Positions 2,187-29,723 of a stretch of 29,854 bases of DNA are shown piece by piece; the stretch's first letter is position 1; every line of letters starts with the position of its first letter. The notes under the pieces were generated by a model. That model was given only the letters and a program-made list of their open reading frames with translations. It made no database searches and was not told the origin of the DNA. Source of the stretch: a virus; the IMG/VR virus record IMGVR_UViG_3300035670_000973, positions 1-29,854 of that record. One strand, 5' to 3'. A program made the position numbers and the translations under genes.

Positions 2187-2411
2187 TTATCCCATCTTAT
2201 TTCCGTTATATCCTCTGCGATTATGTTTGAGTCCTTTTCTTGCTTTCTCAACTTTCATTCGTTCGGCCAATAACTCAATCGTTCCGACTCCAATGTATCT
2301 CGGTCTCTCTTGCAAACTGGTATATCCAGCAATGCCAAGCGAATAGTCGTAATAGTCATAGTTGCCTGCGAATCTTTCGTCGTTGCATTTGTAAAAATAG
2401 TAAACTTTCAT
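2187..2411 (-). CDS. Hypothetical protein, 74 aa
   Basis: 74 residues starting MKVYYFYKCNDERFAGNYDY; the first half is unusually rich in Tyr. The ATG at 2411 shares a base with the TGA stop of the upstream NSG-repeat gene (TGATG), so I chose it over the TTG one codon earlier. Residues 45-70 are basic (ERMKVEKARKGLKHNRRGYN). No family recognised. Coupling to the upstream gene suggests the two are made together. Confidence 0.6.
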   Translation of the reverse strand: MKVYYFYKCNDERFAGNYDYYDYSLGIAGYTSLQERPRYIGVGTIELLAERMKVEKARKGLKHNRRGYNGNKMG

Positions 2412-3298
2412 CAAATCAGCTCTTTCACATCGTCATCTGTAAGCACATCAATTCCAGTTATCTGCTTAAATTTTTGCGGGTCAAAATTTGGAATCGATAG
2501 TACACTCGCTTTATCCACCACGCTTAAATCTTGCCACTTTTCTTGTAAATGTTCTTCCAATGTTTGCGGATTCTGCTTTAAGTATCCTTCTAACGCTTTA
2601 TGCTCTGGGTGTGCTTCTTTTTCCTCATCAGTCATTTTGTGCTCGCTAATCCATTCTGTTGGATTATACGAATACGTTAGGTTGTTTAATACTTTCACTC
2701 CATCAAGTTGTCGAACTTCTAATTGTGTGAGTCCGGAATCTTTGTCGAAAATTTTAACTGCATGTTCTTCTGTGTTGAAAATTCCATTATTGCCATTGGA
2801 ACTGTTCCAGTCTCCGCTGTTCCAGTCTCCGCTGTTCCAGTCTCCGCTGTTGCTGTCTCCGCTGTTGCTGTGTCCGCTGTTGTGGTGTCCGCTGTTGCTG
2901 TCTCCGCTGTTGTAGTATCCGCTGTTTCTGTCTCCGCTGTTGCTGTTTCCGCTGTTCCAGTTTCCGCTGTTGCTGTGTCCAGTATTATGCGAACCGATAT
3001 TCGCTTCTTTGAGCACCTCTTCCCAAGTTAGCTCACGTAGGATTTTGATTTTATTCGTAGCTACCTTACTATCGTTTGTTTCTGTGTCAATGTCTCCGAG
3101 CGCTTCTACTTCCGCTACTTTGTTATCTGGATTAAAACTATAGTAGTTAAAGCAATCTACTAACTTTAAGCAAAAATGAAATCCGCTACGGCATACTTTT
3201 AACGGTTCGTCCATTTCGTATGTTTTGCCTACTTCATACTGAAATCCTCTGCAAACCCAGTCACTATTGAATACTTTGAACCCGATTAATTTTGTCAT
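2411..3298 (-). CDS. DUF7666-like protein with NSGxx pentapeptide repeats
   Basis: 295 residues in three parts. Residues 1-100 resemble the conserved N-terminal domain (DUF7666 type) found in many Firmicute phage proteins: FKVFNSDWVCRGFQYEVGKT, then CRSGFHFC and FNYYSF. Residues 105-174 are about fourteen five-residue units of the form N-S-G-x-x, the last two degenerate. Residues 175-295 are an ordinary acidic C-terminal domain. The N-S-G repeat differs from the classic pentapeptide A(D/N)Lxx but would suit a right-handed beta-helix. The function of these phage proteins is not known. The start ATG is eight bases after GAGGAG and begins a new block after a 115-bp gap. Confidence 0.8.
   Translation of the reverse strand: MTKLIGFKVFNSDWVCRGFQYEVGKTYEMDEPLKVCRSGFHFCLKLVDCFNYYSFNPDNKVAEVEALGDIDTETNDSKVATNKIKILRELTWEEVLKEANIGSHNTGHSNSGNWNSGNSNSGDRNSGYYNSGDSNSGHHNSGHSNSGDSNSGDWNSGDWNSGDWNSSNGNNGIFNTEEHAVKIFDKDSGLTQLEVRQLDGVKVLNNLTYSYNPTEWISEHKMTDEEKEAHPEHKALEGYLKQNPQTLEEHLQEKWQDLSVVDKASVLSIPNFDPQKFKQITGIDVLTDDDVKELI
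2777..2986 (-). repeat. Tandem 15-bp repeats inside the NSG-repeat gene
   Basis: About fourteen 15-bp units encoding N-S-G-x-x. The third to fifth units from the 3' end (all NSGDW) are nearly or fully identical, while others differ mainly in the last two codons. Because the unit is a multiple of three, copy number can change by slippage without breaking the reading frame. Confidence 0.9.
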
Positions 3299-13245: not shown

Positions 13246-14619
13246 ATGAAAAAAGTAGCTTTATATTCAAGAGTTAGTACTTTAGAACAAAAGAATGAAG
13301 GACACTCACTAGAAGCACAAAAGAACGCTTTAGAAAATTACGCAACGGCGATGGGTTATACTGTCGTTGGACATTACAGTGACGGTGGTTTTTCTGGTAG
13401 CAATTTAAATCGACCATCTATGAATGAGTTGATGCTTGATATTGAGAATAACAAAATTGATATGGTTATAGTTTACAAACTGGATCGATTAAGCAGAAGT
13501 CAGAAAGATACGCTTTACTTGATTGAAGATGTATTTTTAGAAAACAATGTAGACTTTATGAGTTTACAAGAAAGTATTGATACTTCTACGCCATTCGGTA
13601 AAGCAATGATCGGAATCTTATCAGTGTTCGCACAACTTGAACTCGCAAATATCACAGAACGAATGAAAACAGGAAGGCATGAACGTGTTCGTAAAGGATT
13701 TTGGAATGCGCACGTCAACGTTCCACTTGGCTACGATTACAAAGATAACATGCTCATACAAAATGAATATGCTCCACTCATAAAAGAAATATTTGATCGA
13801 TTCATTAACGGAGAGAGCGCTTATGCAATATATAAAGACTGTTATTCTCGGTATCCTGATAAAATCTACGGGAATAATATGATTACTCGTATTATAGATA
13901 ATAAGATTTATACAGGAAAAGTAAATTATAATGAGCATTGGTATGAAGGTCTACATGAAGGTATTGTAGATGACGAAACATTTGAGACTGCTCAAACAAT
14001 TAGAAAATCATTGTCAGACAAATTTAAAGTAGATAGAACCAAAAGAAGCGCTTTGTTGGCGAGAAAGATTGCTTGCGGAAAATGTGGGGAATCTATGAGT
14101 ATGTTTAAGCATTGGTACTCACGAAAAGGAGTCAGCGCAGAATATGGATATTATCGGTGCAATTCTAAAATGAATCGAACGAAGAAACATAAACAAATCA
14201 ATTGCGACCAGAAAAACCATCGAACTGATAGCCTTCACGAAATAATTATTGATACAATTAATGGATTGGATTATGAAGAAGCAAAGAGAAATGTGATAAA
14301 AAAAAGCGAGGCTCCAGATACTACCGTAAGATTAGAACAGCTTCAAAAACAAGAAAAGAAATTAATTGATCTATATCAATTTGACAGTATTGACAAAGCA
14401 GAACTTGAAAAACGGTTAAAAGATATAAACCAAGAAAAGAAACAATTGAACGTTGTAAAGAATTCTAAAAATGAAACAAAAATTATTGAAATGCTAAATT
14501 CCGTAAAAGGTAAAAACATGTATGATATGACCTTTGAAGAACAATGTGCTTTAGTTGATACTTTAATAGATAGAATCATAGTTAAAGATGATAATGTAGA
14601 TATTCATTTTTCTTTTTAG
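13246..14619 (+). CDS. int: Large serine integrase
   Basis: 457 residues with the three parts of a large serine recombinase. The catalytic resolvase domain (1-150) has nucleophile Ser11 in YSRVSTLEQ, and VYKLDRLSRSQKDTLYLIED and GKAMIGILSVFAQLE. The recombinase domain covers about 160-265. A zinc ribbon with CGKCGESM and YRCNS follows, then a coiled-coil insertion at about 340-400. It joins attP to attB without need of host factors; excision needs a directionality factor, which I cannot identify here. Ribosome site AAGGAG is eight bases before ATG. It is the last gene of the lysogeny operon, with its 3' end towards the lysis genes, as in TP901-1. Confidence 0.96.
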   Translation: MKKVALYSRVSTLEQKNEGHSLEAQKNALENYATAMGYTVVGHYSDGGFSGSNLNRPSMNELMLDIENNKIDMVIVYKLDRLSRSQKDTLYLIEDVFLENNVDFMSLQESIDTSTPFGKAMIGILSVFAQLELANITERMKTGRHERVRKGFWNAHVNVPLGYDYKDNMLIQNEYAPLIKEIFDRFINGESAYAIYKDCYSRYPDKIYGNNMITRIIDNKIYTGKVNYNEHWYEGLHEGIVDDETFETAQTIRKSLSDKFKVDRTKRSALLARKIACGKCGESMSMFKHWYSRKGVSAEYGYYRCNSKMNRTKKHKQINCDQKNHRTDSLHEIIIDTINGLDYEEAKRNVIKKSEAPDTTVRLEQLQKQEKKLIDLYQFDSIDKAELEKRLKDINQEKKQLNVVKNSKNETKIIEMLNSVKGKNMYDMTFEEQCALVDTLIDRIIVKDDNVDIHFSF

Positions 14620-25954: not shown

Positions 25955-26062
25955 TCACCTCATTAATTTCTGTAAGTCACTACGGAATCGGTTGACTTGG
26001 TCGTTGAAACTTGGCCTCATGAAAGGTTGACTTGGAGAAAATCTGGTTCCATATTCTACGTA
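25955..26062 (-). CDS. HK97-gp10 family tail/connector protein, exon 2
   Basis: 35 residues that begin YVEYGTRFSPSQPFMRPSFN and end in LQKLMR before TGA. This is the conserved C-terminal end of HK97 gp10-type proteins. It has no start codon or ribosome site of its own and continues exon 1 (27068-27295) exactly in frame when 26063-27067 is removed. The joined product is 111 residues, a normal family length. Confidence 0.88.
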   Translation of the reverse strand, partial: YVEYGTRFSPSQPFMRPSFNDQVNRFRSDLQKLMR

Positions 26063-27067
26063 CAATATTGTTATCGCAAAGGCTTTTTATCCTCTGCTTC
26101 TTACAGTCACCTGTAAGTTCGGCATACATTTTCATCGTTAAACGATGTCGGTCACTCGTGGGGATAGTATATTCTACACTTTTTGCGCAAACAAAAAGCA
26201 TAGGTTCAATCCCTATGCTCTACGGTGTCAGGAGTGTTTTAATACCCCCGATTACCTCGGTATTTTCTTATTGTTCAAGTTCTCGGAATAAATAAGGCGG
26301 TCGTTGACCTTTGTTGTACCTTTCCATAATTGTTTTTGGTTTAAAACCTAACTCTTTCGCCCATTGAGTGGCGTTTTGTCTTTTACCTTCCCACTCAATC
26401 CATATAGTGCTTCTGCGGTTGTTAGCTTGTTCAGACCAAGGAATCCATGTGCAGTTATCAGGTTCGTAATTACCGTTTACGTCAATTCTTTCTATTGTCA
26501 AACTTTCGTCATAACCATTCGACTTAGCCCAATCTCTGAAAGATTCATAACTGTTGAACCAATCGTCGCACATCTTTATTCCTCTTCCGCCGTATCGCCC
26601 ATAAGATTTGTTGTTAGGGTTGGAAACTCTGGCTTTTATACCTAACCAAGTGTCGTGTAAATGTGTATGGCTTTCTTTGTGCCTGTGGTACTTTGTTAGG
26701 TTTTCTCGGTCTTGTTCTTTCTTCAGGCAACCGCAAGACTGGACGTTGCCACTCTTCAAAGAATCCGATCTAACTAAATGCTCATTCCCACAAATACACT
26801 TGCAAACCCAGAAAGATTTTCTCCCACTTTTCTTAGGAGACAAACCAACAACCGTCAACCTTCCGTATTTATTCCCTGTTAAATCATTGAACCCATTACC
26901 TTTTCTTTCGCTAGTGTTTATTACATCGTAATCCATTGACATAACCACCTTTCGTTACGTCAATTATACCACGTTCCAAACTCGAAAGAAAGGCTTAACA
27001 ATAAGATTTCCACCGATTTTGACCGATTCTCAAACGCTATTATTAGCGCTTCGGGCTACGTGTAGCA
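26063..27067 (-). other. Group I intron in the HK97-gp10 gene
   Basis: A 1005-nt insertion that splits one conserved codon run (EYAG / YVEYGTRF). The exon ends in U and the intron ends in G, as group I splicing requires. P1 can form: exon GGGU plus intron UG (27071-27066) pair with UAGCCC (27058-27053), putting a U-G wobble at the splice site. Further hairpins: 27032-27039/27044-27051 and 26199-26205/26212-26218; 26100-26106/26111-26117 with a GUGA tetraloop; 26133-26137/26143-26147; 26076-26082/26091-26097. A 10-bp stem (26997-27006 with 26266-26275) closes the loop that holds the HNH gene. I have not assigned P3, P4, P6 and P7. Confidence 0.85.
26268..26936 (-). CDS. Intron-encoded HNH homing endonuclease
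   Basis: 222 residues from ATG at 26936, eight bases after AGGTGG; upstream in-frame GTG and ATG codons are less well placed. An N-terminal zinc-binding part carries FWVCKCICGNEHLV and SGNVQSCGCLKKE. The middle HNH-like part has TWLGIKARVSNPNNKSYGRY, then GGRGIKMCDDWFNSYESFRD and TIERIDVNGNYEPDNCTWIP; the C-terminus has a helix-turn-helix-like segment (ATQWAKELGFKPKTIMERY). This is the usual make-up of phage HNH homing enzymes, which cut intronless alleles so that the intron is copied in. A TATAAT lies 30 bp upstream, inside the intron, so it may have its own promoter. Confidence 0.88.
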   Translation of the reverse strand: MDYDVINTSERKGNGFNDLTGNKYGRLTVVGLSPKKSGRKSFWVCKCICGNEHLVRSDSLKSGNVQSCGCLKKEQDRENLTKYHRHKESHTHLHDTWLGIKARVSNPNNKSYGRYGGRGIKMCDDWFNSYESFRDWAKSNGYDESLTIERIDVNGNYEPDNCTWIPWSEQANNRRSTIWIEWEGKRQNATQWAKELGFKPKTIMERYNKGQRPPYLFRELEQ

Positions 27068-27295
27068 ACCCGCATACTCGGCTGTCGGATAAACATGTGC
27101 TTCCATGCCGTCATTTTGAATATCGATCGTGATTGACCGCTTCATAAATCCTGTATCAACTGGTGCATTCCTCATGGCTTTCTGGTGCATCTCTGCGCCA
27201 TTCGCTTTGACGGCTTGTTTGATGGCTGTCATGTCCATATTCTTGCGCAAGCCCTTCTGTAGAGCTTCTAGCCCATCAATCTTTACTTTAGCCAC
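27068..27295 (-). CDS. HK97-gp10 family tail/connector protein, exon 1
   Basis: 76 residues from GTG at 27295, which overlaps the stop of the preceding gene (TAGTG). The sequence KVKIDGLEALQKGLRKNMDM, QKAMRNAPVDTGFMKRSITI, AHVYPTAEYAG matches HK97 gp10-type proteins, which join the head-tail connector to the tail. Without splicing, translation would add only CYT and stop inside the intron, giving a 79-residue protein lacking the conserved end. Function of the gene therefore depends on splicing. Confidence 0.88.
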
Positions 27296-28919: not shown

Positions 28920-29672
28920 TTAATTTATGTTTTTTTTAAATCGTCTTACTAGTGTCATATAACTACAATCAAAATCTTTAGCTACGCTTCTATAAGATTC
29001 CCCACTGTCAAGACGTCTTTTTATGTCTTGAGCATCTTTTTCGGAGAACTCTTTCCTTTTTGCTTTAGATATTTTTTCTTTAGTTATATCGTTCATTTTT
29101 TTGCCTTTTTTAGCATCAGACATCTTACGCTTGGCTTCCTCAGTGTGGACACGCCCAATACTTTTAGCTCTTATTTTTTCAACGGTTTCTTCAGAAGGTT
29201 TCTTGCCTTTTCTTGCTAAAGACATCTTACGTTTAGATTCTTCGGTGTGTTTACCTCTGAACCCTTTAGCGCTCATTTTCATATTCGCTACAGTTTCCAT
29301 AGGGAGTTTCTTGCCTTTTTTGATTAAAGACATTTTCAACCTTGATTCTTCGGTGTGTTTTCTACCTAAAAAACTAGTGAAACCACTCTCTCCACCGACG
29401 GTTAGGTTATAGCCTTCTGTATAAGTTTTGTGTTGATTGATAAGATTCATTTCTTTGTCCATCAAGTCAGAAACATTATCACACCGTTCTAGAATGCTGA
29501 AAACAAAACATCCTTCCCCGTATTTGTTCCAAGCGTTCTGCAACTTAGGGTTAATATGCTTGTTGTGTCTTAAGTCAAACTTGTGCCTTCTAATTCTTCT
29601 TTTGATGTCAATCGACTGCCCTATATACTTTTTACCGTTAGTTGTATTCTCTATACAATAGATGCCTAACAT
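28920..29672 (-). CDS. Free-standing GIY-YIG homing endonuclease with NUMOD3 repeats
   Basis: 250 residues from ATG at 29672, six bases after GAGGTG. N-terminal GIY-YIG nuclease domain: GIYCIENTTNGKKYIGQSID, with the Arg of RRIRRHKFDL and Glu in KEMNLINQHKTYTEGYNLT. Then three to four NUMOD3-type DNA-binding repeats (GRKHTEESRLKMS and near copies) spaced about 24-34 residues apart, and a C-terminal helix-turn-helix (SGESYRSVAKDFDCSYMTLV). It cuts DNA at specific sites. It lies between scaffold and capsid genes, both of which keep intact ends here, so it is free-standing rather than inside a split gene. Confidence 0.9.
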   Translation of the reverse strand: MLGIYCIENTTNGKKYIGQSIDIKRRIRRHKFDLRHNKHINPKLQNAWNKYGEGCFVFSILERCDNVSDLMDKEMNLINQHKTYTEGYNLTVGGESGFTSFLGRKHTEESRLKMSLIKKGKKLPMETVANMKMSAKGFRGKHTEESKRKMSLARKGKKPSEETVEKIRAKSIGRVHTEEAKRKMSDAKKGKKMNDITKEKISKAKRKEFSEKDAQDIKRRLDSGESYRSVAKDFDCSYMTLVRRFKKNIN

Positions 29673-29723
29673 AATTATCACCTCATGTATATTGTAACAC
29701 ACCTAACCAGTTAAGTATATGTT

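Follow-up and report, generated by a model that had tools for sequence, protein, structure and literature searches.

Group I introns have been described in several kinds of phage gene, among them the capsid and tail genes of Cluster J mycobacteriophages, where RT-PCR gave proof (PMC3706429), and the tape-measure and terminase genes of ICP1 (PMC10448857). A passage of PMC3706429 also cites the major capsid gene of phage Tuc2009 as carrying an annotated group I intron with an HNH gene; this case resembles ours in that a structural gene is interrupted and an HNH gene lies inside, but it gives no match to the family covariance model described below. The lysin introns of Streptococcus thermophilus phages, described as group IA in the summary given by PMC5601072 (citing Foley et al. 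2000), share with our locus, by description, a Bacillota phage background and the group IA type, although their host gene is the lysin gene instead. The ribozyme clade of our intron also includes, as found with the same model or by blastn, the introns in the terminase large subunit (TerL) genes of Brussowvirus CHPC1042 and of the Bacillus subtilis plasmid pLS32, along with tape-measure introns of streptococcal phages. Unlike ours, all of these lie in host genes other than gp10; those of CHPC1042 and JH1301-1 have no ORF, and that of pLS32 carries an ORF of another kind (a NUMOD3 protein).

Our study concerns an interrupted gp10 gene in a stretch of 29,854 nt from a virus (IMG/VR record IMGVR_UViG_3300035670_000973), the whole of which is called the window here. 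We are highly confident that this gene is interrupted by a mobile group I intron of the IA type with P7.1/P7.2, which carries an HNH-family ORF. A first-pass annotation, made from the letters alone, had proposed a group I intron with an HNH gene in an HK97-gp10 type gene, and this is supported by a covariance match, by covariation and by PHROG and Pfam matches. The core structure, the splice sites, P10, the purifying selection on the ORF and the recurrence at the same and a neighbouring site were computed here; from these sequence data we infer RNA splicing and cutting of the empty site by the enzyme. The element is of a known kind, and gp10 is a recurrent host gene that has apparently gone undescribed. 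Our literature search found no paper on introns in gp10 or neck genes, with most subscription journals lying outside its coverage.

The interrupted gp10 gene

The genes of the region lie on the minus strand, as does every feature of the locus given below, and are arranged as is usual for head and tail genes, with the capsid gene followed by adaptor-type genes, head closure, gp10 and tail terminator. The gp10/neck1 gene, which encodes a small head-tail joining protein, extends as a whole over 27295..25955; its neighbours match phrog_348 (minor head) and phrog_176 (tail terminator), and by family match and gene order it fits Neck1. Exon 1 (27295..27068; 76 codons, ending ...EYAG, GCGGGU) matches Pfam HK97-gp10_like (E 1.3e-10) and the PHROG neck1 family (tail completion; E 7e-14). 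Exon 2 (26062..25955; YVEYGTRF...LMR, stop) was identified by ungapped alignment to intronless relatives.

The 1005 nt between them (27067..26063) break the gene between EYAG and YVEYGTRF exactly as had been noted, and their excision restores a reading frame of 111 residues. The joined product reads ...TAEYAG-YVEYGTRFSPSQPFMRPSFN... and shows no gap at the junction, by alignment and tblastn, against the intronless EH-TP1, CHPC926 and Tuc2009; an intronless example reads TDYAGYVEYGTRFQAAQPFVKPAFN at this place. Comparison with intronless relatives had been suggested earlier as a check. A cut shifted by +1 nt gives the same join and was rejected, as the intron would then lack its final G. Only the cut 27067..26063 gives an exon 1 ending in U (27068) and an intron ending in G (26063), the exon and intron ends seen at the first reading.

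The group I core

The core was assessed by covariation among related introns. Seventeen relatives were trimmed to their non-ORF parts, and 12 introns were aligned for the count; the structure counted (P1, P3–P9 and P9.1) was read from the window sequence, which is itself among those aligned. In the proposed structure 97.3% of cells pair, and double changes occur at 42 of the 73 pairs. Sliding the partners by 1–3 columns lowers pairing to 35–43%, a control that somewhat favours the structure because it was read from one of the aligned sequences, and none of 500 shuffles reached any covariation measure. The strongest helices are P3 (6/7 pairs double-changed), P6 (8/8), P7 with its bulge and P7.1 (5/5). 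Pairing is 100% in P3, P4 and P7, 93.7% in P6 and 97.9% in P8, with double changes in each.

On the 5' side of the ORF lie P2 (27033..27050; AGCGCUA/UAGCGUU), which was read by eye, stands outside the pair count and reads AACGUAA/UUACGUU in the nearest relative, L041; the 5' strand of P3 (UCGGUCA, 27020..27026, with 26154..26148; helix 2); and that of P4 (UCGGUG, 27011..27016, with 26262..26257; helix 3). The 10-bp stem that had been seen to close the HNH gene (TCTTATTGTT/AACAATAAGA, 27006..26997 with 26275..26266) is P5, whose 5' strand is UCUUAUUGUU (26997..27006) and whose partner is AACAAUAAGA (26275..26266; helix 4). Beyond the ORF follow the P6 hairpin (26228..26251; UCGGGGGU/ACUCCUGA; helix 5) and the guanosine-binding helix P7, in which GAGCAUA with a bulged A (26214..26220) pairs with UAUGCC (26126..26121; helix 6). 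The bulge sits between alignment pairs 139-259 and 141-258, and the P3/P7 pseudoknot is present. P7.1 (26213..26209 with 26165..26161) encloses P7.2 (26203..26192 with 26185..26174), the two together spanning 26161..26213 (helices 7 and 8). The P3 3' strand (26154..26148) is followed directly by P8 (26147..26133), so that both occupy 26133..26154 (helices 2 and 9). The last stems, at 26076..26117, are P9 (CUUACAG-GUGA-CUGUAAG, 26117..26100) and P9.1 (26097..26076; helices 10 and 11). The several stems of the first-pass annotation were thus recovered, its GUGA-loop stem being P9; stem names beyond P8 were assigned by analogy. With P7.1 and P7.2 inserted as additional stems between the 5' strand of P7 and the 3' strand of P3, the intron falls into subgroup IA (IA1, IA2 or IA3).

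Since the structure had been read from an aligned sequence, it was tested independently with a covariance model built from eight introns of other phages, with the window and its sibling L041 left out. Run against all 29.9 kb of the window, this family model matched at one place only, 26271..26063 (222 bits, E 9.5e-55), far better than chance would allow, and the match ends exactly at the predicted 3' splice site, the terminal G at 26063. The model also matches an intron that the Rfam group I model calls too, in an overlapping place on the same strand (51 bits, cut-off 50), namely that in TerL of the S. thermophilus phage CHPC1042.

In the window itself, the Rfam group I model (RF00028) gave no match at the gathering score or up to E 10. 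The check proposed with the first-pass annotation, a search with this model, was negative, whereas the family-specific model found the core that it was meant to reveal. No Rfam group I match was obtained for 11 loci sharing the 3' core by blastn; ROSA, JH1301-1 and L041 were missed at relaxed thresholds, and the annotated Tuc2009 capsid intron gave sub-threshold matches of 43 and 27 bits. The Rfam negative says little about the window, because 13 of the 14 related intron loci tested were missed as well and only one was caught. The Rfam group I model has also been called incomplete elsewhere (PMC11878797), and annotation pipelines based on Rfam miss this intron clade. DNA like the 3' core occurs in about 111 phage records, mostly of Streptococcus (terminase, tape measure) and Staphylococcus phages.

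Pairings at the splice sites

P1 (27052..27072) pairs the exon 1 end CGGGU (27072..27068) with GCCCG (27056..27052) and places a U-G pair at the 5' splice site. This pair, already pointed out from the sequence, is invariant in all 12 introns. Adjoining the P1 guide strand is the P10 guide ACGUA (27057..27061), whose partner is the exon 2 start UACGU (26062..26058). A P10 pairing of 5–7 bp was present in each of the nine gp10 introns tested; the guide is AAAUA with UAUUU in L041/L035, and AUACGU with ACGUAU in Staphylococcus phages. In the cross control the window guide did not pair with the Staphylococcus exons, nor did the Staphylococcus guides with the window exon. The P10 guide and exon 2 have changed together in the nearest relative, L041/L035.

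These pairings bear on whether there is an intron at all. Free-standing phage homing genes exist, such as the GIY-YIG gene at 29702..28920 beside the capsid gene of the window, and an HNH gene might likewise have been inserted as plain DNA, leaving gp10 as two separate protein pieces. We give this explanation almost no credence, however, as about 330 nt of the insert outside the ORF form a covarying group I core, the ends of the insert coincide exactly with group I splice sites that have both P1 and P10, and the head of exon 2 has no start codon.

As an intron, the gp10 insert is very probably self-splicing, to judge by its sequence. The gp10 pre-mRNA would fold into the ribozyme, and P1 would keep the CGGGU that ends exon 1 paired to the internal guide. 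A guanosine in its binding site in P7 would attack after the final U of exon 1, and the freed exon 1 would in turn attack after the terminal G (26063), while P10 holds exon 2 (UACGU). The joined message would then be translated into the neck protein of 111 aa.

The HNH-family ORF

The loop of P5 contains an ORF of 222 aa (26936..26268). Its start is probably the ATG at 26936, by ribosome-site spacing, rather than an alternative GTG at 26948 that would give 226 aa. The protein matches the PHROG HNH endonuclease family PHROG_374 (E 2.5e-74); Pfam gave no HNH match for it and only a weak CapR-like zinc-ribbon match. Twelve positions are invariant in 46 relatives (C47, C49, C68, C70, R150, G155, Y157, P159, N161, C162, W164 and N173). 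An AlphaFold model from eight sequences was poor (pLDDT 61), whereas that from 46 sequences reached pLDDT 91 and predicts, at the motif ERIDVNGNYEPDNCTW, a strand (146-150), a second strand (162-166) and a helix (167-172), as in beta-beta-alpha metal nucleases.

The protein could alternatively be a bound maturase or DNA-binding protein rather than a homing nuclease, with the intron carried vertically or by another phage's enzyme. This would agree with a motif that lacks the usual DH of HNH, with the absent Pfam HNH match, with the GIY-YIG gene nearby and with fold comparisons in which no solved nuclease matched clearly (Foldseek had no match at E<0.001; a second comparison gave a single HNH nickase, with Z 3.3). 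We nevertheless consider it unlikely, given the strong match to PHROG HNH endonuclease families and a predicted strand-strand-helix that covers the motif, with R150, N161 and N173 invariant. Acting as a homing endonuclease, the HNH-family enzyme would very probably cut intronless gp10 at the conserved Y-V-E-Y-G-T codons, upon which the intron would be copied in.

Comparison of the ORF with that of L041 gave a pS of 0.78 (saturated) and a pN of 0.10, and the ORF is therefore under purifying selection. This argues against a degenerate remnant that no longer splices, which would leave a truncated gp10 of 79 residues (EYAGCYT, stop) or a defective phage. Such a remnant would fit the unspliced frame of exon 1, which meets a stop three codons into the insert, but all core helices are intact in the window, and the core is among the best-conserved parts of the element. 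In addition, P1 and P10 fit the local exons, and exon 2 is still open and conserved, which would be unexpected for a lost gene end. We judge a remnant to be very improbable.

Upstream of the ORF lies an extended -10 promoter-like box, TGGTATAAT (approximately 26958..26966), recognized by consensus match. Most related introns with an ORF have a TATAAT-like box at the same place, and several have a TG before it. A promoter of its own for the HNH ORF is only a suggestion, because the box in the window was not above chance in a promoter scan.

The HNH stop codon within P5

The stop codon of the HNH ORF (26270..26268) lies, together with the last ORF codons, inside the P5 3' strand (26275..26266). 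This overlap with the closing stem had been reported from the sequence, and it is kept in the nearest relative, L041. Ribosomes ending at this stop would open P5, and probably P4 too. That the overlap couples translation to folding and regulates splicing is only inferred. A broader proposal, which we put forward tentatively and hold to be possible rather than probable, is that an IA lineage with one HNH family has made gp10 a recurring target in several genera of Bacillota phages, where its most conserved codon run is hit at two sites separated by about 24 nt, and that the stop in P5 may let translation block ribozyme folding, so that the enzyme and the spliced neck protein would be made at different times.

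gp10 as a recurrent host gene

The opinion that a head-tail joining gene is a less usual home for such introns was not borne out: two collections together yielded at least 16 more records with such introns in gp10, at two sites. These were found by searching IMG/VR for 27 nt of the 3' core and by blastn; the independent insertions are fewer than the records because some records are near-identical. Site A, which is at most 1 nt away from the insertion point in the window, is occupied in contigs L030, L031, L032, L036, L037 and L041 and in the Staphylococcus phages ROSA, Rosita, IME1365_01, BE28 and PG-2021_93, of which Rosita and IME1365_01 were placed by match to ROSA. Leaving aside L041, these introns resemble the window's in gene, in site (EYA|YVEYGT), in core, in an HNH protein of the same family (40–43% identity) and in P1 and P10 of the same design. 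They differ in having no P7.2, a longer P8, a split one base earlier in the codon and in belonging to other phage genera. Site B follows YGTG-V and lies about 24 nt downstream of site A; it is occupied in L005 (BE20), L019 (PG-2021_90), L033, L034, L038 and L039, which share the gene and the core with the window and have a related HNH protein. Where the site A records come with gene tables, these leave exon 2 without annotation or call it 'hypothetical', and none mentions an intron. Listing gp10 pieces as separate or hypothetical genes makes essential genes look broken.

With the 970-nt intron of ROSA removed, a gap-free alignment of 400 nt at 95% is obtained with phage Mh1, which is uninterrupted, whereas unspliced ROSA aligns in two pieces that break at the intron. 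The empty site is demonstrated at the DNA level with the homologous intron of ROSA, because, when contigs were scanned for an allele close to the window gp10 but lacking the intron, only a 32% relative came up; a search for a near phage match to the window phage found none. Such intron-plus and intron-minus pairs (ROSA and Mh1) make gp10 a natural system in which homing and splicing could be tested directly with laboratory phages.

Identity between the window and L041 rises from 61% in exon 1 to 77% in the ORF, 87% in the 5' intron part and 94% in the 3' core. The intron is thus better kept than its gene, as would be predicted if the ribozyme is under selection, if the intron passes from phage to phage, or if both hold. 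L041 and L035 are contigs of one sample and were joined on an identical overlap of 77 nt; that the joined allele represents one phage is likely but not certain. Both contigs break off at their 3' ends within the intron core, in a stretch where they are identical to each other and almost identical to the window; shared introns here act as assembly break points.

Other features of the window and of related introns

Two copies of the intron core were seen in the terminase large subunit region of Arcanobacterium phage TPWB06 (L022; 1405-1512 and 2501-2700) and of Staphylococcus phage SpP (L021; 1037-1232 and 2504-2716), and these terminase genes appear to be split twice. Members of the clade with no ORF include Clostridioides phage LIBA6276 (L024; 2501-2712) and L001 (2502-2719), neither of which is annotated as an intron; the core of L001 lies between two pieces of a tape-measure gene.

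The free-standing GIY-YIG/NUMOD3 endonuclease gene of the window (28920-29702, minus strand) matches TIGR01453, 'group I intron endonuclease' (E 1.2e-28), and has a probable scaffold gene on one side and, on the other, the intact capsid gene, whose start codon lies 15 nt further on. It was considered as a mark of a second intron in the capsid gene, which was rejected, as the capsid gene is whole and the GIY-YIG gene stands alone. That the phage is temperate is suggested by a large serine recombinase-like ORF of 457 aa (13246-14619, plus strand), the neighbours of which are repressor-like. The window further encodes a protein of 295 aa (2411-3298, minus strand) in which NSG(N/D/H)-type repeats form a long run, with a unique part at each of the N- and C-terminal ends.
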